A DNA stretch of 64,000 bases from Amia ocellicauda (Eukaryota > Chordata > Actinopteri > Amiiformes > Amiidae). Shown piece by piece: positions 29,886 to 54,127 of this stretch; within the stretch, counting starts at the first letter, position 1, and every line of letters starts with the position of its first letter. A program made the translations under genes and the position numbers. The notes beneath the pieces were generated by a model that saw nothing but the letters and a program-made list of their open reading frames with translations, was not told the origin of the DNA and did not search any database. The DNA is taken from positions 94,909 to 158,908 of the forward strand of contig NW_027102714.1 in the NCBI RefSeq assembly GCF_036373705.1. The letters run 5' to 3'.

Positions 29886-29893
29886 TATTTAAG
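29886..29893 (+). promoter_or_regulatory. TATA-like box of the first Polinton gene, copy 1
   Basis: TATTTAAG, 67 bases before the ATG at 29960, a reasonable distance for a short 5' leader. Confidence 0.55.
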
Positions 29894-29959
29894 ACCCCGC
29901 GCTGCTTTTAGGCAATACCTCTTTAATTCTCAGCATCTGAAACATCCCGCTTCTTCAAC

Positions 29960-30556: not shown

Positions 30557-30685
30557 ATATGCTGGATTATGGATTATATATCCCCCTTGAATGACGACGA
30601 CGATGATAAAACAGACGACCTGTGGGGGGTTGGAGGGGGGTCTGACGGCTCAGGGTCTACTCTCTTCTAAGAGGGCGGTGTGTCG

Positions 30686-30711
30686 TGACGTAGTGAAGAG
30701 ATAGGATAAAA
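30686..30711 (+). promoter_or_regulatory. ATF/CREB-like motif plus TATA-like box before the second gene, copy 1
   Basis: TGACGTA at 30686-30692 is followed by GATAAAA at 30705-30711, with the ATG of the second gene at 30749. The same heptamer occurs three times in the terminal repeat, which suggests common control. Confidence 0.5.
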
Positions 30712-30748
30712 GGCGCAACAATTCATTCATGGTTTAAAATTAAAGAGA

Positions 30749-31597
30749 ATGTCTTACCCGAAAGCTGCGGACGTCGACAGGCTCTACAGGCCTCTTCAAA
30801 CCCGGGATCACCCCTGGTTCTATTCCCCAGATTTTGTATACACTCCGGAACCCTCTGACTGCGGTTACCCTCCAAGACCTCAGACCCCGGTCCCTCAGGA
30901 CGAAACAACATGCGGAGCGATGGATGTCCAAATGAGTCTCGGGGATCCCCAGCCTCTGGAGCTCATGGAGGGCCTCGATTTTGCCGAACTGTCTACCGTC
31001 TGTGCGTCTCAGGAGGGGGTCAGTCCAATGGATGTAGAAACACCCCACAAACCACCAGGCGACCCAATGAGCATCGGACTGTCTCGGGGGCGTGATGAAG
31101 ACGCAGGATTTATGCCCGGGGTAGGTGTCCAAGTAAGCAGAGTGGTTAAAAGCACCCTGGTGTATATTCTGAGTGCTCTCATCGACCGAGCTCTGAAAGA
31201 AGTCTGTCGGGGGTGTGAAGTGAATCACCCCAGTCAGTTGAGACACAGTTGTTTGTTTGAACCAGACCGTTACTATTTCCTGTTCTATTTCAACGTGTTT
31301 TACAGAAGACTGAACAAACCGTGGCTGAAACCGGCACTAATCAAGGCTCTGTCTTACTCCCACATACATGTCACTGCTGGACAAGTCCAGAAAATCATAG
31401 ATGAGATTTTGCTGGAGCTGAAAAAGGAGCCGTTTATAATAGAGAAACTTGGGCAGCTGCTCAATGACCTGGATGAGCCAAGTAGAAAAACCGCTGGCAA
31501 GCTAAAAGCTTATTTCTTCCGTAAAGAAGTTAAAGCTGGGGGCAGCGACGAAGAATTCGACATCTACGCCACTGATTCAGACTCTGACCTGAACTAA
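30749..31597 (+). CDS. Polinton second gene, Cys/His-motif hypothetical protein, copy 1
   Basis: A 282-residue protein not assigned to a named family. The N-terminal 125 residues are Pro-rich and look disordered, with a twice-used MDV element (residues 58 and 94). A predicted helical region follows (about 130-250) and contains a compact C153-x2-C156-x3-H160-PSQ-x2-H166-x-C168 cluster that could bind zinc. The C-terminus is acidic (DSDSDLN). The start ATG is in a good context (GAGAATGTC) behind its own TATA-like and TGACGTA elements. It ends 12 bases before the next ATG. Early or accessory function is inferred only from position. Confidence 0.8.
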   Translation: MSYPKAADVDRLYRPLQTRDHPWFYSPDFVYTPEPSDCGYPPRPQTPVPQDETTCGAMDVQMSLGDPQPLELMEGLDFAELSTVCASQEGVSPMDVETPHKPPGDPMSIGLSRGRDEDAGFMPGVGVQVSRVVKSTLVYILSALIDRALKEVCRGCEVNHPSQLRHSCLFEPDRYYFLFYFNVFYRRLNKPWLKPALIKALSYSHIHVTAGQVQKIIDEILLELKKEPFIIEKLGQLLNDLDEPSRKTAGKLKAYFFRKEVKAGGSDEEFDIYATDSDSDLN

Positions 31598-31609
31598 GGG
31601 ACTTTGAAC

Positions 31610-32116
31610 ATGGGGAATGTTCTGGACTGCTGCTGCAACTGGTTCTGTCATCAACACTCTGCAGCTAACCTGAGAGCGCTATTACACCATGTGCTTGACA
31701 GAAAAGTAGCCAACGCGAGCCTTTTCTCTACAGATTTAACCATCGATGAGGATCAACTTTCAAACCTGGAAAAGTTAATGGTTGCTGTAACAAAGACCGG
31801 GGGGTATGAACACTGGGATGAAGCGCTCAAGGGGGCCAAGAATGATATTAGGCCATTTCATCAACATCTGTATGACCTTTTACTGAGCATGTTTAATACC
31901 CCTCTGTTTACTTTTAAAATAGGTCATATTGTTGTTTTATTTACATATGTAACTGAGGTGTGTGCCTACAAGATAAAGAAACAGGTATTTGTTGATATAG
32001 ATCAAGTAACCAATCATCTGATTTCTTTTTGTCTGGACCGTAGAAAAAATTGTTGTGTATGTTATACTTTTCTCAAATGTCTAAAAAGGGGTATCTGCTC
32101 TCCTGAAGTTGAATAA
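31610..32116 (+). CDS. Possible Bcl-2-like, N-myristoylated protein, copy 1
   Basis: A 168-residue protein. The ATG at 31610 gives an MGNVLDCCC start: glycine at position 2 fits N-myristoylation and the adjacent Cys residues fit palmitoylation, so membrane attachment is likely. Residues about 84-118 (Y..LL.SMF, then FKIGHIVVLFTYV) resemble the helix 4/BH1/helix 5 region of Bcl-2 family proteins, whose hallmark is NWGRIVALF. A weaker BH2-like stretch may follow near 133-157. There is no C-terminal membrane anchor, which the lipid anchor could replace. If correct it would block host-cell apoptosis. The assignment rests on motif resemblance only. The stop codon overlaps an AATAAA signal. Confidence 0.55.
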   Translation: MGNVLDCCCNWFCHQHSAANLRALLHHVLDRKVANASLFSTDLTIDEDQLSNLEKLMVAVTKTGGYEHWDEALKGAKNDIRPFHQHLYDLLLSMFNTPLFTFKIGHIVVLFTYVTEVCAYKIKKQVFVDIDQVTNHLISFCLDRRKNCCVCYTFLKCLKRGICSPEVE

Positions 32117-32117
32117 A
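32112..32117 (+). terminator. Poly(A) signal overlapping a stop codon, copy 1
   Basis: AATAAA formed across the TAA stop of the third gene; the next TATA box begins nine bases later. Confidence 0.6.
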
Positions 32118-32125
32118 AAACCTTG

Positions 32126-32133
32126 TATAAAAA
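32126..32133 (+). promoter_or_regulatory. TATA box of the integrase/virion gene cluster, copy 1
   Basis: TATAAAAA, 47 bases before the integrase ATG at 32173. The downstream genes are so tightly packed that this may drive several of them. Confidence 0.6.
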
Positions 32134-32172
32134 CTTTGCGCATAGTGTGGGTCTGTGTGTTTATTTGGCAGA

Positions 32173-33264
32173 ATGACTCGGCAAGCTCCCCAAATGCATG
32201 AACTATACTACAACCCAGCCACGATTGGGGGTTTGGCGGGTAAGAAGGGTTTTCAAAGGGGACTCGCTGAGGCCGGTGTGAAGGTTAATGATGTGGTTGT
32301 TTCAGAATGGTTACGGGAACAAGACGCCTATACCTTACATAAACCTCTCAGGATTAACTTTAAAAGAAACCGTGTATATGCAACTGACATAGACTCACAA
32401 TGGCAAATGGATCTAGTCGATATGTCAAATTTATCAAAACATAACAATGGTCACAAATTTATATTGATGTGTATCGATGTGTTATCAAAATATGCCTGGG
32501 CTCGCATTCTACATAATAAAACAGGTCGGGCGGTGACAAGGGCCTTTGAGGATATATTGTCCCAGGGACGATGTCCTAAAAAACTGCAGACTGATAAAGG
32601 AAAAGAGTTTCTCAACAGAGAATTTCAGAATCTACTGAAGAGACACAAAATACATCATTTCACCACCGGTAATGAGCTTAAGGCATCGGTGGTGGAGAGG
32701 TTTAACCGCACCATAAAGACCAAAATGTGGAGATATTTTACAGCGGTCAACACGTTCAAGTATTTTGATAAAGTTCAGGATTTTATCGATGCTTACAACC
32801 AAGGGTATCACGCCAGTATTAAAATGAAGCCTATAGATGTTGATCAAAGTAATTCTTTTAAGGTCTATAAAAAATTATACGGCCCATTTATTAAGAAGGG
32901 GAAAACTACTTATAAGTTCAACATCGGCGATGTGGTTCGCGTTTCAAAGCTAAGGAGTACTTTTGCCAAAGATTATGAACAAACATTTTCTGACGAATAT
33001 TTTACAGTTACCGAACAGGTGGCTAGAGACCCCCCCGTGTACCGGTTAAAAGACTATGACGGGGAGGATATAGAAGGAACGTTTTACGAAGCCGAGTTAC
33101 AAAAAATTATTGTGGGTAAAGACATTGTATACAGAGTTGAAAAGATATTAGCTGAGAAAACCCAGAACCGGAAAAAATATGTGTTGGTGAAATGGCTTGG
33201 ATGGCCTGAAAAGTTCAATAGTTGGGTCCCTGAACAACAGGTTTGTGATATTCAAGCCTTATAA
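32173..33264 (+). CDS. INT: Polinton integrase with C-terminal chromodomain, copy 1
   Basis: A 363-residue retroviral-type (rve) integrase that would join the element's ends to host DNA with a 6-bp staggered cut, agreeing with the CACATC duplication. The Polinton-type N-terminal segment (EWLREQDAYTLHKP, about residues 45-58) precedes the catalytic core with D80 (WQMDLVDM), D141 (LQTDKGKEF) and E175 (SVVERFNR). D141 and E175 are 33 residues apart. Residues about 317-360 form a chromodomain (YRVEKIL, YVLVKWLGW, NSWVPE), which in related elements may steer insertion to marked chromatin. The ATG at 32173 is chosen because the open frame upstream has no earlier ATG. Confidence 0.96.
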   Translation: MTRQAPQMHELYYNPATIGGLAGKKGFQRGLAEAGVKVNDVVVSEWLREQDAYTLHKPLRINFKRNRVYATDIDSQWQMDLVDMSNLSKHNNGHKFILMCIDVLSKYAWARILHNKTGRAVTRAFEDILSQGRCPKKLQTDKGKEFLNREFQNLLKRHKIHHFTTGNELKASVVERFNRTIKTKMWRYFTAVNTFKYFDKVQDFIDAYNQGYHASIKMKPIDVDQSNSFKVYKKLYGPFIKKGKTTYKFNIGDVVRVSKLRSTFAKDYEQTFSDEYFTVTEQVARDPPVYRLKDYDGEDIEGTFYEAELQKIIVGKDIVYRVEKILAEKTQNRKKYVLVKWLGWPEKFNSWVPEQQVCDIQAL

Positions 33265-33268
33265 CAAC

Positions 33269-34066
33269 ATGCCCGCCGGTGTGAGGGGGTCATTACATTC
33301 GATACTCAAGATGGAATCAGGAGGCTTCTACGTGACTCTACCCAGTAACGCCTCTCTCGATATATACCCTAAAAATGAAATATCCAGTTACACGGTACAA
33401 TTTGGAAAATCTATAGATCTAAGGGGGTCGTGGGAAGTGGGGTTGGCGGAAATACAGTATCCTTACACTTGGGCTGTTTTACAAGATAAGGATGCCACCT
33501 TCGCCATTTTTGACGATGTTAAAAAGAGTCAATGGACATTCACGATGCAAGGAGGTTATTATGACAATGTGGATACAATATTAGATGAGATGCATAAACA
33601 GTTCTCAGAAGGCACCCCCAACATCAAGCTATATTACAACCCTATTAAAAACAGAGTGTACAAGGTGTCAAAACCTGGTATTAGCATTCAAACCAAAGGA
33701 CAACTGGGGCGTATATTAGGGTTCTATTCTGACACAGAGAGCAGGTTCTCAGAAGTGGTGGCCCCCTTCCCGGCTGACATCAGGGGCGGCTTTTACACTC
33801 TTTATGTGTATACGGATATCATAACACACCAGAGGGTCGGGGATAGCTATGTCCCCCTTTTGAGAAATGTACTTATTAAAGGTAAAAGCAATGACATGGT
33901 CACAATTACTTATGACAAGCCACACTACGTACCAGTCTCAAAGACCCACTTTGACAACATCACGATCGAAGTAAAATCGGATCAGAATATCAACGTACCC
34001 TTCCGCTTCGGTAAAGTTATTGTCAAACTACATTTTCGACCCCTGAAACAGTGTGTACATTATTAA
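33269..34066 (+). CDS. Penton-type minor capsid protein, copy 1
   Basis: A 265-residue protein matching the Polinton minor capsid (single jelly-roll penton) family, which would form the vertices of the icosahedral shell. The start of the fold (FYVTLPSNASLDIYPKN), the SYTVQFGKSIDLRGSWEVGLAEIQYP block and the strand-rich C-terminus (GKVIVKLHFRP) are characteristic. Two starts are possible: the ATG at 33269, four bases after the integrase stop, and the ATG at 33311 (MESGGF), which has a better context (AAGATGG) and fits family N-termini. The frame also opens inside the integrase gene, but that ATG is unlikely to be used. Confidence 0.88.
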   Translation: MPAGVRGSLHSILKMESGGFYVTLPSNASLDIYPKNEISSYTVQFGKSIDLRGSWEVGLAEIQYPYTWAVLQDKDATFAIFDDVKKSQWTFTMQGGYYDNVDTILDEMHKQFSEGTPNIKLYYNPIKNRVYKVSKPGISIQTKGQLGRILGFYSDTESRFSEVVAPFPADIRGGFYTLYVYTDIITHQRVGDSYVPLLRNVLIKGKSNDMVTITYDKPHYVPVSKTHFDNITIEVKSDQNINVPFRFGKVIVKLHFRPLKQCVHY

Positions 34067-34067
34067 A

Positions 34068-34556
34068 ATGGCTACCTCGAGGGGTTATGTAGATCCTAGC
34101 GCCTATGTGGATTATTACAAGATGCAAGCCGGGAACGGCTTGCCCGGTTTTGTAGGAGCCCCCACAATGTATGGAGCCGGTCTAGGAGGACTCTTTCGTG
34201 GTCTCTTTAGAATGGCCGTACCCCTGCTTAAGAGAGGCTTTGCTATAGCCAGACCCCACTTGAAATCAGCGGCTAAAAATATTGTTAGTGACGTGTTCAC
34301 CAATGTTATGAACCGGGCAGCTAGCCATGAGCAGCAGGAGGGTTCGGGTCTCATGGTAATGGCGAGGAGGGGGGGTAAAAGAAGAAACAGTATGTGTCCA
34401 CCAGGGCGACGAAGATCCGTGGCTAACAAAAAACGAAGAAGCTCTCATTCTCCAACATATCGTGGAAACACTCGGAGAAGGAAGCAGCACAAGAAAAAAC
34501 CTGCAAAAAGAAAATCTCAAAGAAAGACAAATAGAGCCTCAGGATACATCTTTTAA
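34068..34556 (+). CDS. Small basic virion protein (adenovirus pVI-like position), copy 1
   Basis: A 162-residue protein in two parts. Residues 1-95 contain YVDYYKMQAGNGLPGFVG and a Gly-rich amphipathic helix region (GLGGLFRGLFRMAVPLLKRGFAIARPHLKSA), features of the conserved Polinton protein compared with adenovirus minor proteins that disrupt membranes. Residues 110-160 are extremely basic (repeated RRR, KKR, KKKPAKRKS), as in DNA-condensing core proteins. So it may combine membrane-active and DNA-binding roles. The ATG at 34068 follows the penton stop TAA by one base. Function is inferred from composition and location among capsid genes. Confidence 0.75.
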   Translation: MATSRGYVDPSAYVDYYKMQAGNGLPGFVGAPTMYGAGLGGLFRGLFRMAVPLLKRGFAIARPHLKSAAKNIVSDVFTNVMNRAASHEQQEGSGLMVMARRGGKRRNSMCPPGRRRSVANKKRRSSHSPTYRGNTRRRKQHKKKPAKRKSQRKTNRASGYIF

Positions 34557-34558
34557 AA

Positions 34559-35866
34559 ATGTCTTTTGTCCACAGTCTATCGGAAGAATGCGTCAAATCA
34601 GAACTGGATCTGTTTACAGTTCCATACACTCAAACGAGTATAGATAAGAGCATATATGTAGAGATACCCCCTCTTTCCGCAATTTCAGATACGGCCCCTC
34701 TGGAGTTTTTTATAGCTGGCAATGGCGAGGATTATATTGATTTGAATAACACATTTATTTTAATGAACTGTAAAGTGACTGATGAGGATGGCGATGCAAT
34801 CGAGAAGACGGCCAACGCTGGGGTCATCAATTACCCGGTGGCCACCATGTTTTCACAGGTGGATGTGACCCTGGGAGATCGGCTCATTAGTCAAAGCAGC
34901 AATACTTACCCCTATAGGGCCATGATGGAGTGTATCCTTAATTATAGTGAGGAGACCCTAAGCAAACAGTTCAGCCCCGGCCTTTTCTTCAAAGACACCC
35001 CGGAAGCTATGGACGACCAGGATCCAGAGGGACTCAATAAGGGTTTGCAAAAAAGAACGGCCTTTTCAACAGAAGGGAGGACCTTTGAGCTAATGGGACA
35101 TATTCATGCACACATATTTTTCCAAGAAAAACTCATGCTCAACGGGGTAGACATTAAAATTAAAATGATCCGTAGTAAAAGTGCTTTTTGTCTGATGACC
35201 CCTGATACTGAAAAATATAAACTGACCATATTATCGGCCTCGCTGTTTGTGAAAAAAGTATCCGTCTCCCCGGCGGTTAAACTAGGACATGCGCAGGCTT
35301 TAATGACGGCAAACGCCAAGTACCCGATCGAAAGAGTCTATATGAAAGTCCACAGTATCCCCGCAGGGACACGGGTGATGAACCAGGAAAATCTGTTTCT
35401 AGGCCAGCTCCCAAAACAGGTTATTATAGGTCTCGTGGATAATGATGCATTTACCGGGGTTTACAACAAGAACCCCTTTAACTTTAAACATTATAACGCG
35501 GAATTTATAGCACTGTACGTCGATGGTGTGCAGGTTCCATCCAGACCTTTTCAACCTGACTTTGAAAACGGCAACGCGGTTCGTGAATATTACAGTCTAG
35601 TACTGGCTACGGGTCGCCATCTCAAGGATCAACCTCTGCTGATCGATCGCCGGGAATACTGCAGCGGTTACACCCTGTACGGTTTCAACCTGACCCCTGA
35701 CGAAGAGTGTGGACAACATTTTTCACTGATGAAGACGGGCAATATGCGTTTGGAGATGCGTTTCAAGCAGCCTCTACCACGCACTGTAAATATGGTCGTG
35801 TATGCTGTGTTTGACAACATTATTGAGGTGAATCAGAGGAGAAACGTTCCGTATGATTATTATTAA
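34559..35866 (+). CDS. MCP: Major capsid protein, double jelly-roll, copy 1
   Basis: A 435-residue hexon-type protein, the main building block of the icosahedral shell. The N-terminal signature VHSLSEECVKSELDLFTVP, then PLEFFIAGNGEDYIDLNNT and the C-terminal RLEMRFKQPLPRTVNMVVYAVFDN, are highly characteristic of Polinton/adintovirus major capsid proteins, which carry two jelly-roll folds. The length is in the usual range. The start codon lies two bases after the upstream stop, in an A-rich context (TTTTAAAAATG). Copy 1 has His near residue 184 where copy 2 has Asp, and Pro at 431 where copy 2 has Leu. Confidence 0.96.
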   Translation: MSFVHSLSEECVKSELDLFTVPYTQTSIDKSIYVEIPPLSAISDTAPLEFFIAGNGEDYIDLNNTFILMNCKVTDEDGDAIEKTANAGVINYPVATMFSQVDVTLGDRLISQSSNTYPYRAMMECILNYSEETLSKQFSPGLFFKDTPEAMDDQDPEGLNKGLQKRTAFSTEGRTFELMGHIHAHIFFQEKLMLNGVDIKIKMIRSKSAFCLMTPDTEKYKLTILSASLFVKKVSVSPAVKLGHAQALMTANAKYPIERVYMKVHSIPAGTRVMNQENLFLGQLPKQVIIGLVDNDAFTGVYNKNPFNFKHYNAEFIALYVDGVQVPSRPFQPDFENGNAVREYYSLVLATGRHLKDQPLLIDRREYCSGYTLYGFNLTPDEECGQHFSLMKTGNMRLEMRFKQPLPRTVNMVVYAVFDNIIEVNQRRNVPYDYY

Positions 35867-35867
35867 A

Positions 35868-36425
35868 ATGAACACCAGAGAGCTCAACCACATCATGAAT
35901 GCCCTGGACGGCTCACGGAAAGTGTTTCAAGGAGTCTACGCCTGCGACCAGCTGCCTAAATTTAAGATCAAGAATTTACCTGCAATGTACATAATCAACA
36001 CACACCCTAAAAATATGCCTGGAGAACATTGGCTGGCTATTTATCTAAGGGAGGACCGCCGTGGGGAATTTTTTGATTCCTATGGAAACCCCCCGGATTT
36101 CAGACCTTTCCCTCGGAAGATCAATAACTTTCTGCTCAACAACTGTCAAGAAACCATTTACAGCGGTCGTCAAGTACAAAGTCTTCAGACCTTCACTTGT
36201 GGTCAACACTGTGTGTTTTTCTTATATCATAGATCTAAAGGAAGGTCATACCCCGATATTATGTCCTTGTACAGTGAGGATTTAGGCCAAAATGATAAAA
36301 AAGTGGCAGAGTTTGTCAGGACACTGTGGACCCCCCCTTATAACACAATTACTTACGACCCTAGCCAGCCATGTATACAGATGGGGTGTTCTTGTGAGGA
36401 TTTTAAAAGATGTCATGCGTGTTAA
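35868..36425 (+). CDS. PRO: Adenovirus-type cysteine maturation protease, copy 1
   Basis: A 185-residue protease of the adenain (C5/Ulp1-like) fold that would cleave capsid precursors during virion maturation. The catalytic set is visible: H54 (GEHWLAI), D70 (FFDSYG), the oxyanion Gln Q104 (RQVQS) and nucleophile C115 (CGQHCVFF). A Cys-rich tail (CSCEDFKRCHAC) ends the protein. The frame also opens 15 bases earlier, inside the end of the capsid gene, but the ATG at 35868 sits one base after the capsid stop, the same arrangement as its neighbours. It is the last rightward gene before the convergence point. Confidence 0.94.
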   Translation: MNTRELNHIMNALDGSRKVFQGVYACDQLPKFKIKNLPAMYIINTHPKNMPGEHWLAIYLREDRRGEFFDSYGNPPDFRPFPRKINNFLLNNCQETIYSGRQVQSLQTFTCGQHCVFFLYHRSKGRSYPDIMSLYSEDLGQNDKKVAEFVRTLWTPPYNTITYDPSQPCIQMGCSCEDFKRCHAC

Positions 36426-36603
36426 AGTGAAAAAATAATGAAAACAGCCTTTGAATCATTAGTTTTGTTTTTATTCAGCACAAATCTTATACAAAGCAGG
36501 GTTATGTTATAAATAAATGTACAACATTTGAAAATAAAAAATAAAAATAAAAAAATGGTTTGTCGGTTCCTTATTTACAGGGGAGACAAATAAAAACATG
36601 AGA
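36426..36603. terminator. Convergent 3' region with poly(A) signals, copy 1
   Basis: The two transcribed arms meet here. Plus-strand AATAAA-type hexamers occur near 36510-36555. TTTATT, the minus-strand signal, occurs near 36469. The A-rich run differs in composition from copy 2 without a length change. Confidence 0.6.
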
Positions 36604-37347
36604 CTAATAAGCTTCCCAACGATGGATAGATCCTGAGGAGGGTTGCTCAACACGGTCAGAGTAATGAGATATCGGCGTCAGATCAGTCACCACCTCTTTA
36701 CACAGACGGATTTTTTGTCGCGTTTCCTGGTTAGGGACTGTTGATTGGGGTATGTTCAGACAGGCCATCGCCTGTAGGAAAGCATTCCAGCCTACAGGTC
36801 GGCGACTATCGGGTACCTTATTAGTGCTAGTGACACTCTTCAACAAATCAAACATGTGTGAACCTTTGAGCAGTTGTCCTTTAAAAACAAATTCACCCTG
36901 TTCATTCCAAGTCGTTACCCGCGGTTTCTGAACCATTTTGTGCAGAATATATTCTGCATGTCTTTTGCTTCTGGCCGGCATGTTTCTCAAAACATCCGTT
37001 ACAACATCTCCCTCTGAACTCTCAACAGGTTCGGGCACCGCAACATCTTTATCAACCGTACCCCCCGCATCAGTCCCAGAACCATTTTCTTGAGAGGCCA
37101 TGGTTAAAGTTAAAATGTTTTGATCTTTTTCACCCTGTCTAACCAGACGGAGGTAGAGCTGTAACGTGTTGCTATACATCTGGGCTTTGGAATACTGATT
37201 TAAATCGGCCCTGGCCAGTATAGCTTTCATTTCAGAGTCCAGGTTGTTTTCGGCCGTTTGTCTAATGGGCTCTGGCCCGACAACATTTTTTCTCAGTTTC
37301 TCAAGCTGCTCCTGAGGGATCAAAAACATTTTCTGAGCATATTCCAT
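36604..37347 (-). CDS. Conserved Polinton hypothetical protein (247 aa), copy 1
   Basis: A 247-residue protein. Helical N-terminal part (about 1-85) with LIPQEQLEKL and repeated small-residue helices, an acidic low-complexity linker (about 86-118), and a C-terminal domain with WNEQGEFVFKGQLLKGSHMFDLL and a later GWNAFLQAMACLNIP block. That W-GE-G-G-DLL pattern recurs in hypothetical proteins of other Polintons as I remember them, but has no assigned function to my knowledge. The ATG lies two bases after the stop of the upstream 111-residue gene, so the two are probably translated from one message. It is the last gene of the leftward arm. Confidence 0.8.
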   Translation of the reverse strand: MEYAQKMFLIPQEQLEKLRKNVVGPEPIRQTAENNLDSEMKAILARADLNQYSKAQMYSNTLQLYLRLVRQGEKDQNILTLTMASQENGSGTDAGGTVDKDVAVPEPVESSEGDVVTDVLRNMPARSKRHAEYILHKMVQKPRVTTWNEQGEFVFKGQLLKGSHMFDLLKSVTSTNKVPDSRRPVGWNAFLQAMACLNIPQSTVPNQETRQKIRLCKEVVTDLTPISHYSDRVEQPSSGSIHRWEAY

Positions 37348-37349
37348 TA

Positions 37350-37685
37350 TTAACCCACTCTGGAAGCTAGAAGACTGGTTAGGAAAGGCACGGCTATGCT
37401 CAACAGCGGTCCTATAAAACCTCCGGTTTGATTAATCTTCTTTCTTTTTCTTTTAATAGAATACTTCTTATTAGCGATGATCTTGATAACCGCTTTTTGT
37501 TTTTTGAGTTTAGAATGTTGAGAAGGGGTTAGGGGTATATTACCGCGTAAGATGTTAAAAGCTATTTTACACAGGGTCTCGATCAAATCCGAGGGGGCCC
37601 CTGCCAGCACAGCTTTCCTATGGCACGGGCTCCCCTCAAATAACATTTGCAAAAGCGGCAGATTTCTTTTAATCCGAACAGACAT
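37350..37685 (-). CDS. Short basic conserved Polinton protein (111 aa), copy 1
   Basis: A 111-residue protein. It begins MSVRIKRNLPLLQML, has a middle helix region (LIETLCKIAFNILRGNIPLTP), a strongly basic stretch at about residues 56-86 (KKYSIKRKRKK), and ends in a Gly-containing hydrophobic tail (GGFIGPLLSIAVPFLTSLL). This layout of SxRxKRxLPLLQ, GNIPLTP and GGFxxPLL recurs in Polinton-derived hypothetical genes across animals. The basic part plus membrane-like tail suggests a virion-associated protein, but its role is not established. Placed between the ATPase (six-base gap) and the 247-residue gene. Confidence 0.8.
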   Translation of the reverse strand: MSVRIKRNLPLLQMLFEGSPCHRKAVLAGAPSDLIETLCKIAFNILRGNIPLTPSQHSKLKKQKAVIKIIANKKYSIKRKRKKINQTGGFIGPLLSIAVPFLTSLLASRVG

Positions 37686-37691
37686 TCTTAT

Positions 37692-38363
37692 TTATTTCCT
37701 TTTCTTTAGCACATACACTGCCGGCCAATCGGGCGGGCACAAACCTGTTCTGAGGCGAAAGTCTTCTGGGGTTTGTGCTTTTAAGTCCACAATCAAGTAC
37801 CCGTAGGGTTTTTTGGTGGCATCCTCAAATGCCTCCAAAAAGAATTTGGTCTGGTTAGGGTACATTTGACGAGCCAAGACGGTGACCTGTAGTTTATCTC
37901 TGGGGTTTTTAAAAATAATTATATAATTGGCATTTAAATTAATAGTGCGGCTTTTTTTACCTTGAAAAAATAGATTTTGAACTAAATAAATAATACTTAA
38001 ATTCCTATGATGAGTGTACTTTGTGAAAGCTTTTTCCACTTCACTGTTGTCACCGGCCTGCTCCATCAGGTCATCAAGGATCACTAGATTAGTTTGTCCG
38101 GGCGGGAACAGGTCATCGTCACACAACGAGGCGGGGAGACCTTGCACAAATTTCAGATTTTTTTTTTTTTATGCCAAATCATCGTAGAGAGGTTGCCAGC
38201 AAGAGTAACACCACACTATGTTGTCAAGAGCTTGGGACACGGTTGCGTCCACATCTTCTATGATGTTCTTTATAAGATAGCTCTTACCCGAATTGGAGGG
38301 ACCGGCTATAATACAGGAGAAAGGGTGTTGAAGTCTGTTATCAAAACCACCGCTAATATCCAT
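37692..38363 (-). pseudogene. ATPase: Packaging ATPase (FtsK/A32 type), stop codon in copy 1
   Basis: Counterpart of the intact 223-residue ATPase in copy 2. The Walker A loop (GPSNSGKS, residues 21-28) is present, but codon 65 is TAA where copy 2 has TCA, ending the protein at residue 64, before the Walker B motif. The rest remains open in frame. The lesion lies in a T-run (13 consecutive T on the plus strand near 38158) that in copy 2 is interrupted by A and G. A second cluster of differences near 38020 changes two residues without shifting the frame. Either copy 1 is inactivated or these are consensus errors at homopolymers. The ATG overlaps the polymerase stop. Confidence 0.88.
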
Positions 38364-40791
38364 AAGGCAGAGTGGTATAATCAGTCTTCAACACTCTTTT
38401 ATTGTACACCACCCTGAACCGTTTGTTTAGTGATCTATTTTCCAATGTGTACCCCTTTTTATTGCGATAGATCTGATTTCCGGCTGTAATAATCTCGCGA
38501 GGAGGCGCGTCTTTCTCGGTTACAAAACTTTGTACCAGGGTCGTCAGAGACTTGATGTTAATGAGCTTGTTGTTACAATGGTTCAGAGTGAAACCCTTAA
38601 CTTTCATACAGGTCTTACCCGCAGCCGTTCTGTATGCGTAAGTCTTAGGACCCCCTGAAACAAACTCAACTATGTGGTCCTGAGGATCTAGCTCACTCGT
38701 TAACTCCCCAAGGTAGTCCCCGAGGGGAGGGACCCAATCCCCTGGCCTGGTGACAAAGATTACAGAGTCAGTATCATGATAGAGCGTGCGTTCCTGCAGC
38801 TGATCCATTAAGTTGTACAGTTCAAGCCGGGCGTAAGCCGTGGTAAAAACCGCTATGAAAACATTAACGTTTCCCTGTTTGGTGGGGAAATCTTTAGGGG
38901 CCCTCCACTGGACCTGTGCCACGTGGTCATTTAAGAATTGAAAGTGTGATACTGCATGTTGTTTGGAAAACATAAATTCTATAAACTGTTCAGGGGTTTT
39001 AATCAAGGTTGTGTTTAGACGGTTATTTCTTTCCCCAAACTTACCCCACAGACTGTTTAAAATCAGTTTGGACATTTGTCTCTTGGCGGGGTTTACAGTT
39101 ATGTTCCCCGGCTCTAGACGGATCCCTTCCTTTTCAAAATATTGCTGAACGTACCGCTCTTTGGCAGCGGAGTCAACACACCATGAGGGATAGCCCGATG
39201 CCTCCTGTTTCCCTTTCAGATGGGTCATAATGTACTCAGCAAAAAGAGTATCAGATTTTTCAGAAAAATGCCAAACCTCATACACCTTACCGACTCTGTA
39301 ACCTTTCTCCACCGCCTTGTCAAGCTCAATGCTACACCAGACACCCGTCAGCGCTCTCTCGTCATCACTGTGCAGACAAGAGGTATTTTGATTTTCAGTT
39401 TCCACACACGTTCTACACAGAGGGAACATCAATTTTCCCGAACACCTGTAAGGCAACACGGGTAAGAACAGCTCGCGAGGAGGGTACATGCTGACTTTGA
39501 TCAAACCAAAGTACTGTCCGATTTCGAGAAAGTCACGATAAACAATGGTTGGATGCCCCACCGGGTACATTTTGGTCTTGTTGACATAAGGGTACAGACT
39601 GGTGAAATCATAGTAATCTACTCTCTCACCCTCCTTTACCTCATAATGTAAACAGAGGGCGTTGGTACGACCCCCAAATAACGCACCCCTGGGCTCTAGA
39701 CGTTCAGGAAAGTCCAAGGTTTCCATAAACCGTTGTACCCCCACATCCTGTTGCTTCAGGGTCGTCCACGCGTGTTCCCAAATCACCAGTACATTCAAAC
39801 CATAGGTGTTTTTTAAAGTTTCAATTCGTTCCTGGAAATCATAGTACATATCACCGCAGAGTTTTTGTGTTACGGGGTTAAAGGTGTTTGGGTCGAAGCA
39901 CTGAGGACAGCCCTGGTAAATACAACCAGCAAACTCATAAGCGGTACGCCGCCCGGACACGTCGCTAAAACCGTCTAAGTAGTAAGGACCCATTTTGACT
40001 TCCCCTTGATTTAAAGCATGTCTGATGAAGATGTTATCCCGGGCACTCAGATATTCCAGCCACTGTATGGAGACAGTCGAAAAGTTCTTTTGTCTAGCAC
40101 GATAGTTGTCAGAAGTGGTGACCGCTATAGTGTTTTTCTGCAAGAAATTGGATCGATACATTTTCATGCAGAGAGACGCTATGGTCACACTTTGCAAAGG
40201 GTCGAGACCCGACGTGTTGATAACCTCGGCGCGGAAACGCAAACAGGCTTCTTTAAGGATCACCACATCATTTTTACAATAAGCGGCCATCTCTTCTCGG
40301 AAATCAAAAACACCTCCCTTAACCGTATTGTACCATTTAAAGAATTCCTCCCTCTCATGAGACATCATAGTATCAACCCCATAATAAGAGGCGGGCGGGT
40401 AGGACCCTCGATAATTTTGAGTGTCCTTAGTATTAAAAAAATGGCAGAACCAACCTTTCTTCTGAGCCTCAAAACCCAGAGCTTTAGGCAAAGCGCTCAA
40501 TTTCATGGGGAGGAAATTTAACGAGTCTATGTAACGTTGGTTGAAAGCCTCGTCGGTGAAACACATGATCTTGCTACCCTGAGCTATTATTTTTGGGGTC
40601 ACCCCATTTTCCACCAGATACTTCATCAATATGTAAGAATCATAACCCTTAGCATTGTGGGCAATAAATGTGTAATTGAGGTATTTTGGTTTAGCTAGCT
40701 GACCACTCACAATCCAACATGTCAATACAGTGTATATAATTAGCAACATGGACCCCGTTTTCTTGCCGGCATTCAAAATAAAAAACGACAT
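38353..40791 (-). CDS. PolB: Protein-primed family B DNA polymerase, catalytic part, copy 1
   Basis: An 812-codon frame holding the exonuclease remainder and whole polymerase core of a protein-primed family B polymerase, which would replicate the linear element from its termini. Visible blocks: exo II HNAKGYD (about residue 47), motif A DFTSLYP (about 395), motif B around KLILNSLWGKFG (about 580), motif C YHDTDSV (about 672) and the KVKG block after it. The first residues of the frame are probably not native: the N-terminal part of the protein lies in another frame at 40691-42553, which overlaps it by about 100 bases. So the gene is split, by an indel or a small deletion. Its stop overlaps the ATPase start. 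Confidence 0.92.
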   Translation of the reverse strand: MSFFILNAGKKTGSMLLIIYTVLTCWIVSGQLAKPKYLNYTFIAHNAKGYDSYILMKYLVENGVTPKIIAQGSKIMCFTDEAFNQRYIDSLNFLPMKLSALPKALGFEAQKKGWFCHFFNTKDTQNYRGSYPPASYYGVDTMMSHEREEFFKWYNTVKGGVFDFREEMAAYCKNDVVILKEACLRFRAEVINTSGLDPLQSVTIASLCMKMYRSNFLQKNTIAVTTSDNYRARQKNFSTVSIQWLEYLSARDNIFIRHALNQGEVKMGPYYLDGFSDVSGRRTAYEFAGCIYQGCPQCFDPNTFNPVTQKLCGDMYYDFQERIETLKNTYGLNVLVIWEHAWTTLKQQDVGVQRFMETLDFPERLEPRGALFGGRTNALCLHYEVKEGERVDYYDFTSLYPYVNKTKMYPVGHPTIVYRDFLEIGQYFGLIKVSMYPPRELFLPVLPYRCSGKLMFPLCRTCVETENQNTSCLHSDDERALTGVWCSIELDKAVEKGYRVGKVYEVWHFSEKSDTLFAEYIMTHLKGKQEASGYPSWCVDSAAKERYVQQYFEKEGIRLEPGNITVNPAKRQMSKLILNSLWGKFGERNNRLNTTLIKTPEQFIEFMFSKQHAVSHFQFLNDHVAQVQWRAPKDFPTKQGNVNVFIAVFTTAYARLELYNLMDQLQERTLYHDTDSVIFVTRPGDWVPPLGDYLGELTSELDPQDHIVEFVSGGPKTYAYRTAAGKTCMKVKGFTLNHCNNKLINIKSLTTLVQSFVTEKDAPPREIITAGNQIYRNKKGYTLENRSLNKRFRVVYNKRVLKTDYTTLPYGY

Positions 40792-42553
40792 ACCGGTTGT
40801 GCGGCGGCTCCTTTTTAACCGGCTGAATAAAGCACTGGTGTTCAGACCCCGGGGTTAAATCCGCATTACAGATCCTACATCTCGGTTCCAGACATTTGTG
40901 TGGTTTAACCTCATGAAAACGGTACTGGAGGCAACACTGCGGGCAATATTTAGTTTGATCACAATAACTCCGTTTTTTAACCCCCTCAGCAGCGGCCCTC
41001 TGCACCTTATGTTCGGAAAAACAGAACGCGGAGAGACAAATCCTTAAGCAATCTTTACATCGAATGGTAGGGGCCAAACCCTTACGACATTGCGGATTGA
41101 AACAGACGTTACAGTAACCGTCACAGCGGTGCTTAAGCTTATCATTGAAGGCCTTATAACACCAATGACAAACATACGAACAACCCAAAAAAGCCGTCAA
41201 ACTCTTTATTCCAAAGTAATGACTATCACTTAGGAAGAGAAACAGTGTCTGTGTATGGGTTTCAGGATGTGTCTGAAATTTCACAAATACTTCCTTTACC
41301 TCACAACGGTACCACACAACAATTTTTAAAGACAACAACTCCTCAAACATGGCAATGTCTGAAAAGGCAACCATCTGTTGAGAGTTTAAGCCGGCCCTCT
41401 GATGAAGCATTAAAGCCTCTTGCATAGCTTGGGGTTCAGGCATGTCGGGGGTGAGTAGTTTTATTAAACTGTAAGCAAAACAGAGCTTATTGTCACCATT
41501 GGAACTCACCACTAATTGCCTGAGCTTGTTCCTAATTATGTCGTTCTTCAAGCATTTCGACAGTCTTCTAAGCGCCCCACCCTCAGGGTTACGAAACACA
41601 TTCATTACCAGAGACAGACTTTCATCAGCTAAGATGGATGCGTTACTTTGCAATAACGCTTCGATTTTAGCCAGAAATTCATCAACATCTAAATTATCTC
41701 CACTCAGCATTACAGATAGGTTGCTAAACAAATCATCCCCTCTGAGTTCTAACTGTACAACATCTCGAGGTCTGACCCTTTCAGCAACCTGTTCAAGCAT
41801 GTTTTGCAAGGCCTCGTGTATGTTGACAAATATTTCTGCATAATTGTCACAATTTAAAAGTTCTGCAAAATTAAAACGCTGAATCATTTCAAAATTGTTA
41901 TAGGCCGGTCTATCTATAATCACGGGATCACTGGTACTCTTGGACACATCATCATTTTGAACAAAGCCTTCAACCCCTACATTCTCACAGAGCATGTCAT
42001 CCACAGCCTTATCAGTCTCAGAACCCTCCACATTCCGAACACCCCCACCGCTGACATCTACAAAACCCCCTTTTTGAGGAGGCTCATTTAAAGCCTGTAA
42101 AAGTCCTTCAAAGATATCCACCCGGTTAATGTCAAGACCCTCCTCTATAGTGACGGCTGCTTCTGCCGCCGTACTGTGTTCTAATGGTCTCAAATCATTT
42201 ATAATAGGGGCAGAATTTGGTCGGGGTAGCGTCTCCAAAGCCTCCACCATTTCAAACAAATCGGGGTGAACTAGGGGTTGAACCTCTATAAGCGCTACCG
42301 TTGGGAGGTGGTTATTTAGATCATTGACCATCTGTAACAGGTCGGGGTTCACCGGTAAATCTGGTAATTCACATTCTATCGGTGGTGATTGGGGGTTATT
42401 TAAATCATTTATCATTTGTAATAGTTCCTGGTTCATTGGGACATCAGAGGAGTTCACAACAGGGCCGGGGGTGTTCTCTCGGGAAGGTCTTTTTGGGGCC
42501 CTAACTTGTTCATAATCCTTTAGTTTGTGAGTTCTTTTACCAAGTCCGGACAT
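40691..42553 (-). CDS. PolB: Protein-primed DNA polymerase, N-terminal part, split from the core in copy 1
   Basis: A 620-codon frame forming the N-terminal extension of the Polinton polymerase. Residues 1-25 are basic (nuclear-targeting type). Three imperfect copies of an acidic-helical motif (xPxLLQMxNDLN, about residues 41-52, 69-81 and 96-108) follow. A papain/OTU-like segment (GDNKLCFA near 355; DSHYFGI near 444) precedes a dense Cys/His zinc-binding region (about 455-580) typical of Polinton polymerases. The exonuclease begins with FYFEC near 594, where the usual exo I motif has DFE; the catalytic Asp is absent. The frame stops soon after, at 40691, because of the break. Confidence 0.85.
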   Translation of the reverse strand: MSGLGKRTHKLKDYEQVRAPKRPSRENTPGPVVNSSDVPMNQELLQMINDLNNPQSPPIECELPDLPVNPDLLQMVNDLNNHLPTVALIEVQPLVHPDLFEMVEALETLPRPNSAPIINDLRPLEHSTAAEAAVTIEEGLDINRVDIFEGLLQALNEPPQKGGFVDVSGGGVRNVEGSETDKAVDDMLCENVGVEGFVQNDDVSKSTSDPVIIDRPAYNNFEMIQRFNFAELLNCDNYAEIFVNIHEALQNMLEQVAERVRPRDVVQLELRGDDLFSNLSVMLSGDNLDVDEFLAKIEALLQSNASILADESLSLVMNVFRNPEGGALRRLSKCLKNDIIRNKLRQLVVSSNGDNKLCFAYSLIKLLTPDMPEPQAMQEALMLHQRAGLNSQQMVAFSDIAMFEELLSLKIVVWYRCEVKEVFVKFQTHPETHTQTLFLFLSDSHYFGIKSLTAFLGCSYVCHWCYKAFNDKLKHRCDGYCNVCFNPQCRKGLAPTIRCKDCLRICLSAFCFSEHKVQRAAAEGVKKRSYCDQTKYCPQCCLQYRFHEVKPHKCLEPRCRICNADLTPGSEHQCFIQPVKKEPPHNRYVVFYFECRQENGVHVANYIHCIDMLDCEWSAS

Positions 42554-42558
42554 TTTTT

Positions 42559-42571
42559 TTTATTTTTTATT
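42559..42571 (-). terminator. Minus-strand poly(A) signals for the six-exon gene
   Basis: Two AATAAA hexamers on the minus strand (42566-42571 and 42559-42564), about 50 bases after the stop at 42618 and just before the polymerase ATG at 42553. Confidence 0.55.
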
Positions 42572-42617
42572 TTTCCAACAACCCACAATAGTAAGGCGTT
42601 TTGTATCTATTAAAACA

Positions 42618-44648
42618 TTAAATACGGTACAATTCGTTAGTAAGGGTATTAATAAGGGTGTTTTGACTCTCTATCACAAGGTTTTGCCCCACTAACACAA
42701 GTCTTTGATTTAGTAACAAGGTATGTAGCAACTCATGCCGACCTTCAGGAAGTAGCTCCGGGGGATGGTGTCCTGGCTCAGCTGCAAAGGATGGTCGCTC
42801 CGGTAAATCTCGGTCGAAGGAGGCAGGGAGCGAGCGTATACTCACGGACGGAGACCAAGAAGGCCTTTGCGGTGACACCCTGGCCAATCGCGGTGTACTG
42901 TTCAGCGTTTCTGTAGCCAAGAAACGGGGCTGGGGGGACGATGTTGAAACCAGTCCGTCGTTGGGTGGTGTGTCAACCCTGACTGACGGCGACCCCTGAG
43001 GTTGTTGGTTGCCTGTATTTGTTCCGCCCGACAATGCGGCGGGCTGAATCTGGATTGTTGAATTACCCCCAGAAGGCTGTGGCCTGAGTAGATGTTGGGG
43101 GGTCTCCAAGACCACCGTGGGGGATCCTCTCGGTGATCTCTCCGGGGAAGATGTTTGATCCCACTTAGACGGGGTAATTGTCCTCAATAGCTCATCCACA
43201 GAATGACTATCCCAAGAGTCTTGGGAAGAATAAAAATATACATTACATTTACATCTTTAAACGGCGACAGAAATCAAACTTAAAACAACATGTCCAGGAC
43301 CTTCAAAACCTTTAGCTTTTTTAGACCTTTGAAAATAGGCTTAGACATTCACTACAACGCCTTATTATTTACAGACAATATATTTATTAGGACTTGATAA
43401 TAAATGTAAAACAGAGAAGCCTCTGTAAATAAACTGTTTCTTAAATGTAATATTGTTAATAAAACACTTTTTATACACACACACACCACATTTCATTTTT
43501 AAACGAACCTTCCAAGTGTAAACGCTTCCTGATCCCGGGACTTCCTGTTTCACAAACGTTTTCACGATCTGTTTAAATATTAAATACAATGAACACCTTC
43601 AAGCCTTTTCCTACAGCCACTTTAAAACAGAAGTATAATTGCGGGAGATAAGCCAAACAACTTACTAAAACCTTTCGGACAGCTTTACTTCCTAACCAGA
43701 CGGTCGGGCAATCGGTCATTTCTAAACACATGCCCCAGAAACAAGCCTAGACCTGTCCGGACTTCTAAAGATCTTTCCCAGAACCCCCAAGACCTACAGG
43801 AAATGGACACCCCTCGCTTAAATATTAGCCCTCAACGGGCAAACAAAACCCTTTTAAAAACATTAAAGTTTGAAAGATCTTACTTACCTCCAAAGAATAA
43901 TCGTTTCTTATGTTTTTCAGCTGATTTAGCTTTTTGCACTTCTGTGAAGGTAAGAGACATGTTTAACCTTTAACCACCCCTCTTTATAAAAAGCTTTAAC
44001 CTCTTACAAGCGGCAGATATATACTCACCGCTATCAGATACAGGGGCTGACGGCCTTTCAGATTCTTGAAAGGTTACGGTTCTCGAAGGTAAAACGAAAC
44101 AATCCCTCGATGTGGAAGGCCTTTCGTTGTCTCGAACCACGTTTCTTAATACTGTTAGAAAGGATATTTTTTTAAATTAACAAAACGGGCCTCAAACATC
44201 TTACCGAAACGTTATACAAACAAACAGGGGTTTAGTTCTTACCCGGTCGGCAGACAGCCTGTCTAGGGACAACCACTTCTCTTGGTTGATCCTCGGAGAC
44301 ATTAATCACAGGCCTTTCGATAGTTTCTGTGTAATTAAAGAGACCGCCATTAATATATATTAAAACGTTTTCATAACTCTAATGAGCCGCTTCAAAACAC
44401 AACCACACACCCATACATAAGAACCCTTGAGCGCAAACACAAAAATCTTACCGTCGTTGTTCCAGATGATCTCCTCAGCGTTGGGAATTAACTCCTGTTG
44501 ACTGGCTGAAAAATAATTTTACAGAACTTAAAACAGATGTTATAACCTTATTTACAATACATGCCCACGCTCTGAGTCAATGAAAATAATCTGAAGACTT
44601 ACCTAAAAACTCGTTTAAATCGAAGTCGTTGATGTTGTTTCCGGACAT
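42618..44648 (-). CDS. Six-exon spliced gene of the Polinton right arm (320 aa), unknown function
   Basis: Reading leftward I find exons 44648-44603, 44505-44452, 44326-44243, 44151-44029, 43941-43888 and 43219-42618. Every junction has GT and AG: donors are GTAAGT, GTAAGA, GTAAGA, GTGAGT and GTAAGT, and acceptors end TTTTTCAG, TTACACAG, TCTAACAG, CTTCACAG and TTCCCAAG. All five introns fall in phase 1, internal exons are 54, 84, 123 and 54 bases, and the 963-base total is one open frame from ATG to TAA. The product is hydrophilic and probably disordered; an ERP motif recurs four times, exon 5 is basic (KHKKR) and the last exon is Ser/Pro/Gly-rich. I recognise no family. The largest exon alone has no ATG start, which explains why unspliced reading misses the gene. 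Confidence 0.72.
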
Positions 44649-44713
44649 TGTTGATCTTTAGGCTTAAATCGAAAGGTCAGTATGAGTCTGTCGAGCTGAA
44701 GACCAGACCTTCA

Positions 44714-44721
44714 TACTTATA
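44714..44721 (-). promoter_or_regulatory. TATA-like box of the six-exon gene
   Basis: TATAAGTA on the minus strand, about 66 bases before the ATG at 44648. Confidence 0.45.
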
Positions 44722-46043
44722 CTGATGGCCGGATGCCGGATCTGCTTGTAAGGCATTGTTCTGGGCTGGCCTTTGTGCCGTCCTGTTATCAATTAACATA
44801 TCAAAACCAACCAATAAAATGACCCTGCATCAATTTCAAATAGAAACCAAGATGGCGACGATCTCTCTCCTCTCTACTCTAAACTTTTATTAGAACCTTT
44901 TGGTCTCTCAAAAAAACATTTTTAAGCATCAAGACCTATAGTCAATAAACACTAAGAATATTTCAGGCCTTTATACGCGCTAAAAAACAACCTGAGCCAA
45001 GAAAATAACTATAAAGATCTAAAATAAGTAGCGCTTTTACAGTGATTTTTTTTTTTTTTTTTTTTTTTTAATAGCGATGCTTTGTTTGGTATTAAACAAG
45101 TCACAAACTACTCAGAACAGCATTTATCCCCACAAAAGAGATATTTGGGTTTATTTTACAAAGCTTATAAATTATATAGTTTAAAAGTATTCTGAATGTT
45201 TTGAGACCACACGCCATGCCTACGTTTGTCTGAGCCCACCCCCGTCCCCCGTGGTGTGAGTGATTTAGCCTTGAGTGTTGTGATCTATTTAGCATTGAGT
45301 GATCAGTTGTTTTTATTTTTTAAATGATTCCTTATCATCAGGGATTGAGCCTGCTAAAATACCTTAAAAACATATCCTTATCTTAAGTCTAACTCTTATG
45401 AGCTTTAAGACCCTAGAATGTATTTAAGTAAAACGAATGAACACATTATGTGTGAGATAAAATATAACCACAGCTTTTATTTTTTTTATTTTTTATTTAT
45501 TTTTTTATATACAAATACAATTAACCTATACCCACAAACACCCACACACACACACACCCTCTTTTTTTTAATTTTATTTTTAATTAAATTTGAGGGGAGA
45601 GACAGAGCCATATACATTGGGGTTAACATAAGTACCCTATGCAAAACAGGCATTGTTAGGACCTGTGACCATTACAGACAACAGAACTTGTTGATCTTAT
45701 AAAATGATTGGGCGAGAGAGAGAGATATAGAGACAGACAGAGACAGAGCCAGTGTGAATATGATAAACGCACTATTCAAAATGGCATTGTTAAGACCTGG
45801 GACCATTACAGACAACAGAACTTGTTGATCTTATAAAATGCTTGGGCGAGAGAGACAGAGAGAGAGAGACAGACAGTGACAGAGACAGAGACAGTGTGAA
45901 TATGATAAACGCACTATTCAAAATGGCATTGTTAAGACCTGGGCCCCTTACATGTATATTTAAAAAAGACCCCCAACCGCTACAGGAAGAGCCGACCCAT
46001 TCACACTCTACAGTTGACCAACAAGAACAACAAGAACAACCGG
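44722..46043. other. Non-coding right flank of Polinton 1
   Basis: No believable gene. It contains an AAGATGGCGACG motif near 44850 resembling a YY1 site, a run of about 24 T near 45060, an A/T-rich low-complexity stretch (45475-45590), and a tandem duplication with GA-rich runs described separately. Confidence 0.6.
45651..45945. repeat. Tandem repeats of about 134-142 bp near the right terminus
   Basis: The string CATTGTTA.GACCTG starts at 45651, 45785 and 45927. The first two units continue identically through ACCATTACAGACAACAGAAC, TTGTTGATCTTATAAAATG and a GAGAGA/GACAGA run. The third unit is cut short after GACCTGGGCCCC. Confidence 0.85.
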
Positions 46044-46224
46044 TTATGGGGGGCCTTGTTGTTCAGGGTTTTAGGGGTGTACACTTTCTGGCGGATATGA
46101 CGTAGGAATAATTAAGGAAATAACTCTAAAATCACGCCCCCCAATTATGACGTAGGAATATTAATAAGCTTAGGGCATACGTCATAACAAAATAGGCCGC
46201 GCCCAAAAAACCCTACTATCTACT
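46044..46224 (-). repeat. Right terminal inverted repeat, Polinton 1
   Basis: Reverse-complement partner of 29659-29839. The same three TGACGTA motifs lie at the mirrored positions 46098, 46148 and 46178. Confidence 0.95.
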
Positions 46225-53109: not shown

Positions 53110-53115
53110 CACATC
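53110..53115 (+). repeat. Target-site duplication CACATC, left of Polinton 2
   Basis: Same 6-mer at the same array position. The right partner lies beyond the window. Confidence 0.93.
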
Positions 53116-53416: not shown

Positions 53417-54127
53417 ATGTCCAGCGACATCAACATGAAACCCCGCAAGAAACAATCCCGGGCAAGGGTTCCTGTACTCACCAATTTGAAGATTGAACGC
53501 TCCTGGGTGTTGTTCTGGGGGGGTCGACGGGGTTACCGCTTTAAAAGGGATCCCAGCTATGTTGGAGTGGAGCTTTTTGCTTTGGGAGAGAAGGAGGGTA
53601 CGTTGGAACCTTTTGAGACGGTGATTGAATACTCTTTTGAGGACTGGTTGAAGGTGATGGCATGGAGAGACCTGGGGCTTGTGGATAAGACTCTAGAAGG
53701 CTTGCAAGAGGGTCCAAGAGAAGGCGAAACGGAGTCTCCGACTCAGAGTTTTGAAAGGTGTGAATGGGAAAGCTTGCAGAACTACGGTACAGTGGTGAAG
53801 AGTCTATCTCTAACTACTGATCGTAAGGTTTTGTTTAGCAGTACCCTGATTACAAACCCTATTGAAGGGGTTGTGGAGGATCCAGAAAAACAGGTTACTG
53901 AAATTATGTTTGACGCCGTGGACTGGCCGTTCTTGAAAGAGGTCATAAACTGTATAAATGATGGTTTTGACATCTTGACCAAATGTTCACAACTGGATTC
54001 TGTTAGAAGGAGAATATGCTGGATTATGGATTATATATCCCCCTTGAATGACGACGACGATGATAAAACAGACGACCTGTGGGGGGTTGGAGGGGGGTCT
54101 GACGGCTCAGGGTCTACTCTCTTCTAA
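53417..54127 (+). CDS. Polinton leftmost gene, hypothetical, full length in copy 2
   Basis: A 236-residue hypothetical protein, equivalent to the truncated frame at 29960. It has a basic N-terminal patch (residues about 8-17), a central folded-looking part rich in Trp and Tyr, and a C-terminal tail with a run of Asp followed by Gly/Ser. Basic head plus acidic tail is compatible with a nuclear regulatory protein, but no family motif is visible. A TATA-like box lies at 53343-53350 and the gene is followed after about 80 bases by the next rightward gene. Confidence 0.8.
   Translation: MSSDINMKPRKKQSRARVPVLTNLKIERSWVLFWGGRRGYRFKRDPSYVGVELFALGEKEGTLEPFETVIEYSFEDWLKVMAWRDLGLVDKTLEGLQEGPREGETESPTQSFERCEWESLQNYGTVVKSLSLTTDRKVLFSSTLITNPIEGVVEDPEKQVTEIMFDAVDWPFLKEVINCINDGFDILTKCSQLDSVRRRICWIMDYISPLNDDDDDKTDDLWGVGGGSDGSGSTLF

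Follow-up and report, generated by a model that had tools for sequence, protein, structure and literature searches.

We propose that the DNA examined here holds a spliced accessory gene of a bowfin Polinton family that was recently active, an overall explanation that we consider probable. The spliced gene structure itself can be held with slightly greater confidence, and a multi-exon structure with uniform phase inside the Polinton is supported as real. In the window, by which we mean the whole stretch of 64,000 nucleotides from Amia ocellicauda that was analysed, the split gene occupies positions 44648-42618 on the minus strand, between the type B DNA polymerase (PolB) and the right inverted repeat, and it lies on the same strand as PolB. 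It is composed of seven exons and six introns, and its 1023 coding nt correspond to 340 codons plus stop. The introns are 97, 125, 91, 87, 319 and 289 nt long, all of them in phase 1, and the exons are as follows:

44603 to 44648, minus strand: exon 1, 46 nt, with the ATG start
44452 to 44505, minus strand: exon 2, 54 nt
44243 to 44326, minus strand: exon 3, 84 nt
44029 to 44151, minus strand: exon 4, 123 nt, also in the NCBI models P0001 and P0002
43888 to 43941, minus strand: exon 5, 54 nt, also in P0001 and P0002
43509 to 43568, minus strand: exon 6, 60 nt, its peptide also in P0001 and P0002
42618 to 43219, minus strand: exon 7, 602 nt, with the TAA end

An earlier sequence-only reading had described six exons joined by five GT-AG introns into a 320-codon frame in phase 1, and these parts are present as described, except that one exon had been missed. 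The 668-nt fifth intron of that reading does not stand as a single intron, as it contains the 60-nt exon at 43568-43509, the peptide of which is found in the two NCBI models. The phase 1 of all introns and the divisibility of the internal exons by three had been counted as separate points; both hold, yet they express a single fact and count only once. The symmetry of each internal exon means that the frame would survive the skipping of any of them. Exon 6 has a proper acceptor (AAACAG) and a weak donor (GTTCGT). At this donor (43508-43513), the sequence GTTCG, which is far from the consensus, is shared by the window and the majority of the divergent and young copies inspected, and such a weak donor across copies suggests that exon 6 may be an alternative exon.

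When the exon-7 frame was searched against a database of 5.8 billion proteins, two matches were obtained at E up to 0.01, both of them Amia ocellicauda models, LOC136721633 (P0001) with 94% and LOC136717369 (P0002) with 84% identity over this frame. Both models hold exons 4-7 joined in the order 4-5-6-7, and the peptide of exon 6, which is DRENVCETGSPGIRKRLHLE in P0001, is placed between the exons numbered 5 and 6 in the earlier reading. The two models thus belong to the same gene family as the split gene of the window; they are named as uncharacterized, with no mention of a Polinton in the names. Neither P0001 nor P0002 contains exons 1-3. The start of P0001 lies inside intron 3, an in-frame reading of which in the window matches the beginning of this model. 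No match to the N-terminus of P0002 was seen in the 2285 bases examined at its probable locus, L095, and the model appears to take its first exon from elsewhere and to join it to exon 4. At L095, the acceptor of exon 2 is lost and exon 3 carries a stop, and this damage would explain the different start of the P0002 model. With a profile built from the exon-7 frame, P0001 and P0002, no further protein was recovered from this database of about 5.8 billion at E up to 1, and a Pfam search with the pieces of the split gene gave no match above the cut-off. In viral contigs, scanned with a few short patterns at a time, no relatives of exon 7, of the 5' part of PolB, of the capsid candidate or of a 12-protein capsid alignment were confirmed. 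Across the protein database and the viral contigs searched, relatives of the split gene were found only in Amia.

The element that carries the gene is, by the sequence features tested, an ordinary vertebrate Polinton, and its parts in the window are as follows:

29659 to 46224, no strand: Polinton copy 1, 16,566 bp, with inverted repeats and a target duplication, containing the split gene
29659 to 29839, plus strand: left terminal inverted repeat, 181 nt
32155 to 33264, plus strand: integrase with chromodomain, Pfam PF00665 (rve) and PF00385
34559 to 35866, plus strand: major capsid protein candidate, a role suggested by gene order, with 1125 related proteins
35853 to 36425, plus strand: adenovirus-type endoprotease, Pfam PF00770, 24.1 bits vs a cut-off of 21.3
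38353 to 40791, minus strand: PolB, 3' part, Pfam PF03175
40691 to 42553, minus strand: PolB, 5' part, a 620-aa frame, next downstream of the split gene
46044 to 46224, minus strand: right terminal inverted repeat, 181 nt

The inverted repeats of copy 1 are 99% complementary over their 181 nt and end in the motif AGTAGA. A 6-bp target duplication, CACATC, flanks both ends of the copy, and a single CACATC is found at three empty sites of the same array; the insertion site occurs five times in the window, empty in three cases and filled in two (approximate positions 4666-4671, 13667-13672, 22752-22757, 29653-29658 and 53110-53115). The polymerase match is to type B (PF03175), with protein priming putative. 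In the copy of the window, PolB is broken over two overlapping frames (38353-42553), and in other copies it forms a single much longer frame; the frame around the match reaches up to 1417 aa there, and the 620-aa frame at 40691-42553 is thus probably part of PolB. The search for a packaging ATPase gave Pox_A32 with a score of 14.5 bits, which falls short of the 22.8 cut-off. Pfam yielded no match to a major or minor capsid protein. Relatives of the capsid candidate number 1125 at E up to 0.001; those with names are mostly 'F54H12.2-like' proteins of vertebrates, and among the best 120 of the 1125 they come from fish, reptiles and amphibians. The right inverted repeat is preceded by a tandem repeat of 142 bp (45637-45952), in which runs of AGAGAC occur. 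Two frames are of unequal length in the first and second Polinton copy, namely 29960-30556 vs 53417-54127 (198 vs 236 aa) and 37692-38147 vs 61149-61820 (151 vs 223 aa).

The window lies at a contig end of a 988-Mb genome assembly and contains 9-kb units in tandem array, which carry tRNA-Trp, tRNA-Gly and a Tc1-like transposase; a search of it with Rfam at gathering thresholds gave seven tRNAs and nothing else. The Polinton is present in two of the array units, the second copy running past the window edge, and the filled unit (about 23.46 kb) is itself multiplied. Matches to exon 7 are densely clustered in several long stretches of the genome (C25:1.33-2.22 Mb, C6:49.5-50.6 Mb, C42, C55, C372 and others). 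The exon-7 frame has at least 150 matches in the genome, with an internal stop in one among the matches listed. No intronless (retro)copy was found among the at least 133 and at least 131 matches scored, none of which spans several exons unbroken.

Stronger evidence came from the alignment of 67 copies. Of 71 PolB-linked copies listed, 44 lie in four big array contigs and 27 elsewhere; the alignment took in 12 of the former and 26 of the latter, together with 14 more from outside the arrays and 15 further copies, of which 7 form an older subfamily at 85-90% DNA identity. Some copies classed as dispersed are near neighbours on a single contig and could have arisen by local duplication. The sequence-only reading had proposed that splice sites and phase be compared in related copies. 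Each GT or AG is retained in 58-67 of the 67 copies. When the 52 non-array copies are considered, no exon indel is common to two or more of them, as compared with 25 such indels in the introns, 23 of which are not multiples of three. All other indels, which are confined to single copies, number 21 in exons and 53 in introns (Fisher p 0.0013). Distinct indels were counted here over about 1 kb each of exon and intron, with large deletions scored where they begin. The last 24 nt of exon 7 were excluded from these counts and from the subfamily substitution counts, and the apparent shortening of exon 7 by 15-24 nt (L095-L101) and by 3 nt (L102-L105) is at least partly an edge of the fetched sequence. 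In the first 38 copies, every intron contains an in-frame stop, and the length modulo 3 varies in five of the six introns. This pattern is most simply explained if elements that continue to multiply do not retain exon indels, and if exons and introns alike are hit after insertion.

All exon frames and all splice sites are intact in 40 of the 67 copies, and at least one has been lost in the other 27. By class, fully intact copies make up 26 of 40 dispersed copies of the window type, 11 of 15 array copies, 3 of 5 intermediate copies and 0 of 7 copies of the older subfamily. Damage in related elements had been named beforehand as counting against the gene; it is seen throughout the older subfamily, but not in the 40 intact copies or in four further young copies. 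The latter, which were picked for one common score and for their location on four chromosomes, have all seven exons and twelve splice sites intact in the fetched region, which ends before the stop codon. Two of these young copies, L103 and L105, lie on two chromosomes and differ at one base in 2146, which indicates that the family moved recently with the gene whole.

Coding selection was less visible in the substitutions, which gave no clear signal in three designs. The observed changes (58 nonsynonymous, 22 synonymous and 2 stop) are to be compared with 56.1, 20.8 and 5.0 expected, and pN/pS is near 1 among close copies. Between subfamilies, pN/pS was 0.66 in the coding frame vs 0.96 and 0.67 in the shifted frames. 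Fixed differences per site amounted to 0.042 for nonsynonymous, 0.072 for synonymous and 0.059 for intron positions, which is in the right direction but not significant, and the comparison of fixed N:S with singletons gave p 0.23. Mean divergence between subfamilies ranged over 0.039-0.106 in exons and 0.070-0.117 in introns, and with such overlapping ranges the exons as a class are not clearly slower than the introns. A control with PolB in 26 of the same copies plus the window was weak as well (0.58 vs 0.68 and 1.28 in shifted frames), and drift after insertion thus seems to swamp the substitution test.

Putative signals for the expression of the split gene flank it on both sides:

44811 to 44815, minus strand: ATTGG (inverted CCAAT), beginning 167 nt before the ATG
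44714 to 44721, minus strand: TATAAGTA, putative TATA box, beginning 73 nt before the ATG
42559 to 42571, minus strand: two AATAAA, putative poly(A) signals, between the stop and the PolB start

Both TATAAGTA and the upstream ATTGG are retained in 62 of the 67 aligned copies. About 200 nt upstream of the split gene, a CAAGATGGCG motif, presumably YY1-like, is also found at 44848-44857. We infer a scheme in which RNA polymerase II would transcribe the split gene in the nucleus from its own TATA/CCAAT promoter, the spliceosome would join the seven exons at phase-1 junctions into a 340-codon message, and this message would be cleaved at its own AATAAA signals just before PolB. Nuclear transcription and splicing would follow if the split gene is expressed.

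That the multi-exon frame is a chance arrangement in the non-coding DNA of the element is, in our judgement, very improbable. A script for finding the longest spliced frame, with donors set to GTRAG and acceptors rich in pyrimidines, gave 320 codons with phase-1 introns only and 333 in any phase for the unshuffled sequence, and none of 2000 dinucleotide shuffles reached 320 codons (maximum 279 in any phase and 219 in phase 1 only). Because this result leans on the long last exon, the last exon was fixed and the upstream sequence shuffled in a second control; 320 codons were then reached in any phase by 33 of 3000 part-shuffled sequences, which counts in favour of chance, but by none of 3000 with phase-1 introns only. 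The intrinsic evidence against chance is good, not overwhelming, and the comparative evidence, in which exons hold frame and introns change length, is stronger than the shuffle controls; the indel pattern, the retention of splice sites and the use of exons 4-7 by the NCBI models all argue against chance. The same 33 sequences, the start of P0001 in intron 3, the other N-terminus of P0002 and the substitution tests without a clear coding signal would also fit a gene whose coding region is restricted to its 3' part (exons 4-7, or exon 7 alone), with exons 1-3 as a chance extension or a non-coding leader and a transcript start elsewhere. We regard this reduced gene as unlikely, since exons 1-3 have no indel common to at least two non-array copies, retain their splice dinucleotides in 61-64 of 67 copies and have the same phase 1 as the rest, the TATA and CCAAT motifs precede exon 1 in 62 of 67 copies, and the damage to exons 2 and 3 at L095 would account for the start of P0002.

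The gene could also be a relic, once functional and now no longer expressed or needed, as would be consistent with the pN/pS near 1 among close copies and with the loss of at least one exon frame or splice site in 27 of 67 copies. This seems improbable when the shared indels of non-array copies (0 in exons vs 25 in introns) are considered, and young copies on four chromosomes with the seven exons and twelve sites indicate that recently moving lineages carried the gene whole; moreover, the substitution test on which the relic leans was weak for PolB, too (again 0.58 vs 0.68 and 1.28). A different kind of alternative concerns only the origin of the gene and is compatible with a spliced accessory gene: a host gene may have been taken up as DNA, introns included, and the uniform phase would then come from the donor gene and not from any need of the element. 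An element that copies itself as DNA would be expected to keep the introns of a chromosomal gene, and as the core genes are described as intronless in the accessible part of PMC8097293, a foreign origin is a natural guess. Against it, no homologue outside Amia was found among about 5.8 billion proteins, both Amia matches being of the same family, and no Pfam family was found for the pieces of the gene, though fast change in a disordered protein could conceal a homologue. Host capture is offered as a tentative possibility, and we retain the spliced accessory gene of a recently active Polinton family as the preferred reading.

The growth of this gene by exon duplication, which the sequence-only reading had suggested, found no support. 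Among 21 exon pairs compared by local alignment with 500 shuffles each, the best uncorrected p values were 0.022 (DNA, exons 3-4) and 0.058 (protein, exons 6-7), and no pair stands after allowing for 21 tests. The ERP motif reported as shared between exons is indeed enriched, its four copies being matched by 0 of 5000 shuffles. Exon 4 alone accounts for two of them, however, a distribution more in keeping with the repetition of a short motif than with the duplication of exons. The predicted product also contains 12 S/T-P sites (46 of 5000 shuffles have as many) and three S/T-P-x-K/R sites (146 of 5000), as well as the basic patches KRLFFG and RKRLHLE, which we take to resemble cyclin-docking RxL motifs. 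AlphaFold2 on P0001 gave a mean pLDDT of 38.2, a hint that the product may be largely disordered, with one long C-terminal helix (P0001 residues 256-294). From these motifs and the low-confidence structure model, the product could conceivably be a phosphoprotein with a regulatory role in the nucleus, acting in the manner of early proteins of small DNA viruses, a proposal that we make with reserve.

Small nuclear DNA viruses diversify their early proteins by alternative splicing. The split gene might offer the Polinton a comparable regulatory device, in which the five small symmetric cassette exons 2-6 would be skipped or included in whatever combination, always in frame, to give a set of isoforms from one locus, and we put this forward as a speculative idea. 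Several of the cassette exons carry short motifs of their own, namely ERP motifs (exons 3 and 4) and the basic RxL-like patches (exons 5 and 6), and one, exon 6, has the weak donor. If this is true, a virus-like transposon depends on, and exploits, the spliceosome of its host.

Such a gene differs from what has been described for related elements. According to the accessible text of PMC8097293, no introns were observed in intact vertebrate Mavericks and their conserved ORFs are intronless, which agrees with the earlier remark that Polinton genes are mostly intronless. The statement concerns the conserved core ORFs above all, and it bears on the gene and not on the membership of the element. 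In the parts available, PMC10120064 attributes the good performance of a prokaryotic gene finder to the lack of introns in such endogenous viruses, and PMC8547959 reports that none were found in virophage-like elements. To the extent covered by the excerpt of PMC8097293, the bowfin element shares with vertebrate Mavericks/Polintons the inverted repeats, the 6-bp duplication, integrase, PolB, protease, the size range (12.7-24.6 kb reported) and an accessory region, in which diverse ORFs are described; in contrast to those intronless elements, its accessory gene has six introns, and its end motif is AGTAGA where (AGT)2 is the commonest. Polinton-like viruses of protists also have introns in their genes, which are self-splicing group I introns in the portion seen of PMC12220804, whereas the bowfin introns are six GT-AG introns in one gene of a vertebrate element. 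If RNA confirms the splicing, its tissue and stage would provide a handle on when the elements are active, which is useful because Maverick particles have not been observed, as far as the available text of PMC8097293 goes. In the literature searched, whose coverage leaves out most subscription papers, we found no Polinton described as having a multi-exon spliceosomal gene. What appears to be new is thus a Polinton with an intron-rich accessory gene, the latter located in Amia alone by the searches described above. The premise of intron-free genes in annotation is therefore a blind spot, and searches that rely on it can miss whole genes of such elements.

In adenoviruses, the early and other transcription units are spliced. 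No sequence homology to an E1A-like early protein was detected by Pfam on the pieces of the gene or by the protein search, which gave only Amia, and LxCxE was not seen by eye in the exon peptides, junction residues not included. The likeness of the bowfin element to adenoviruses, which lies in PolB, the adenovirus-type protease, the GT-AG split gene and a predicted disordered, proline-rich accessory product, is a comparison of how they work only, and by this analogy the split gene may work like the adenovirus early genes without being related to them. A spliced gene of this kind would link the life cycle of the Polinton with the nucleus and the splicing apparatus found there, as is the case in adenoviruses.
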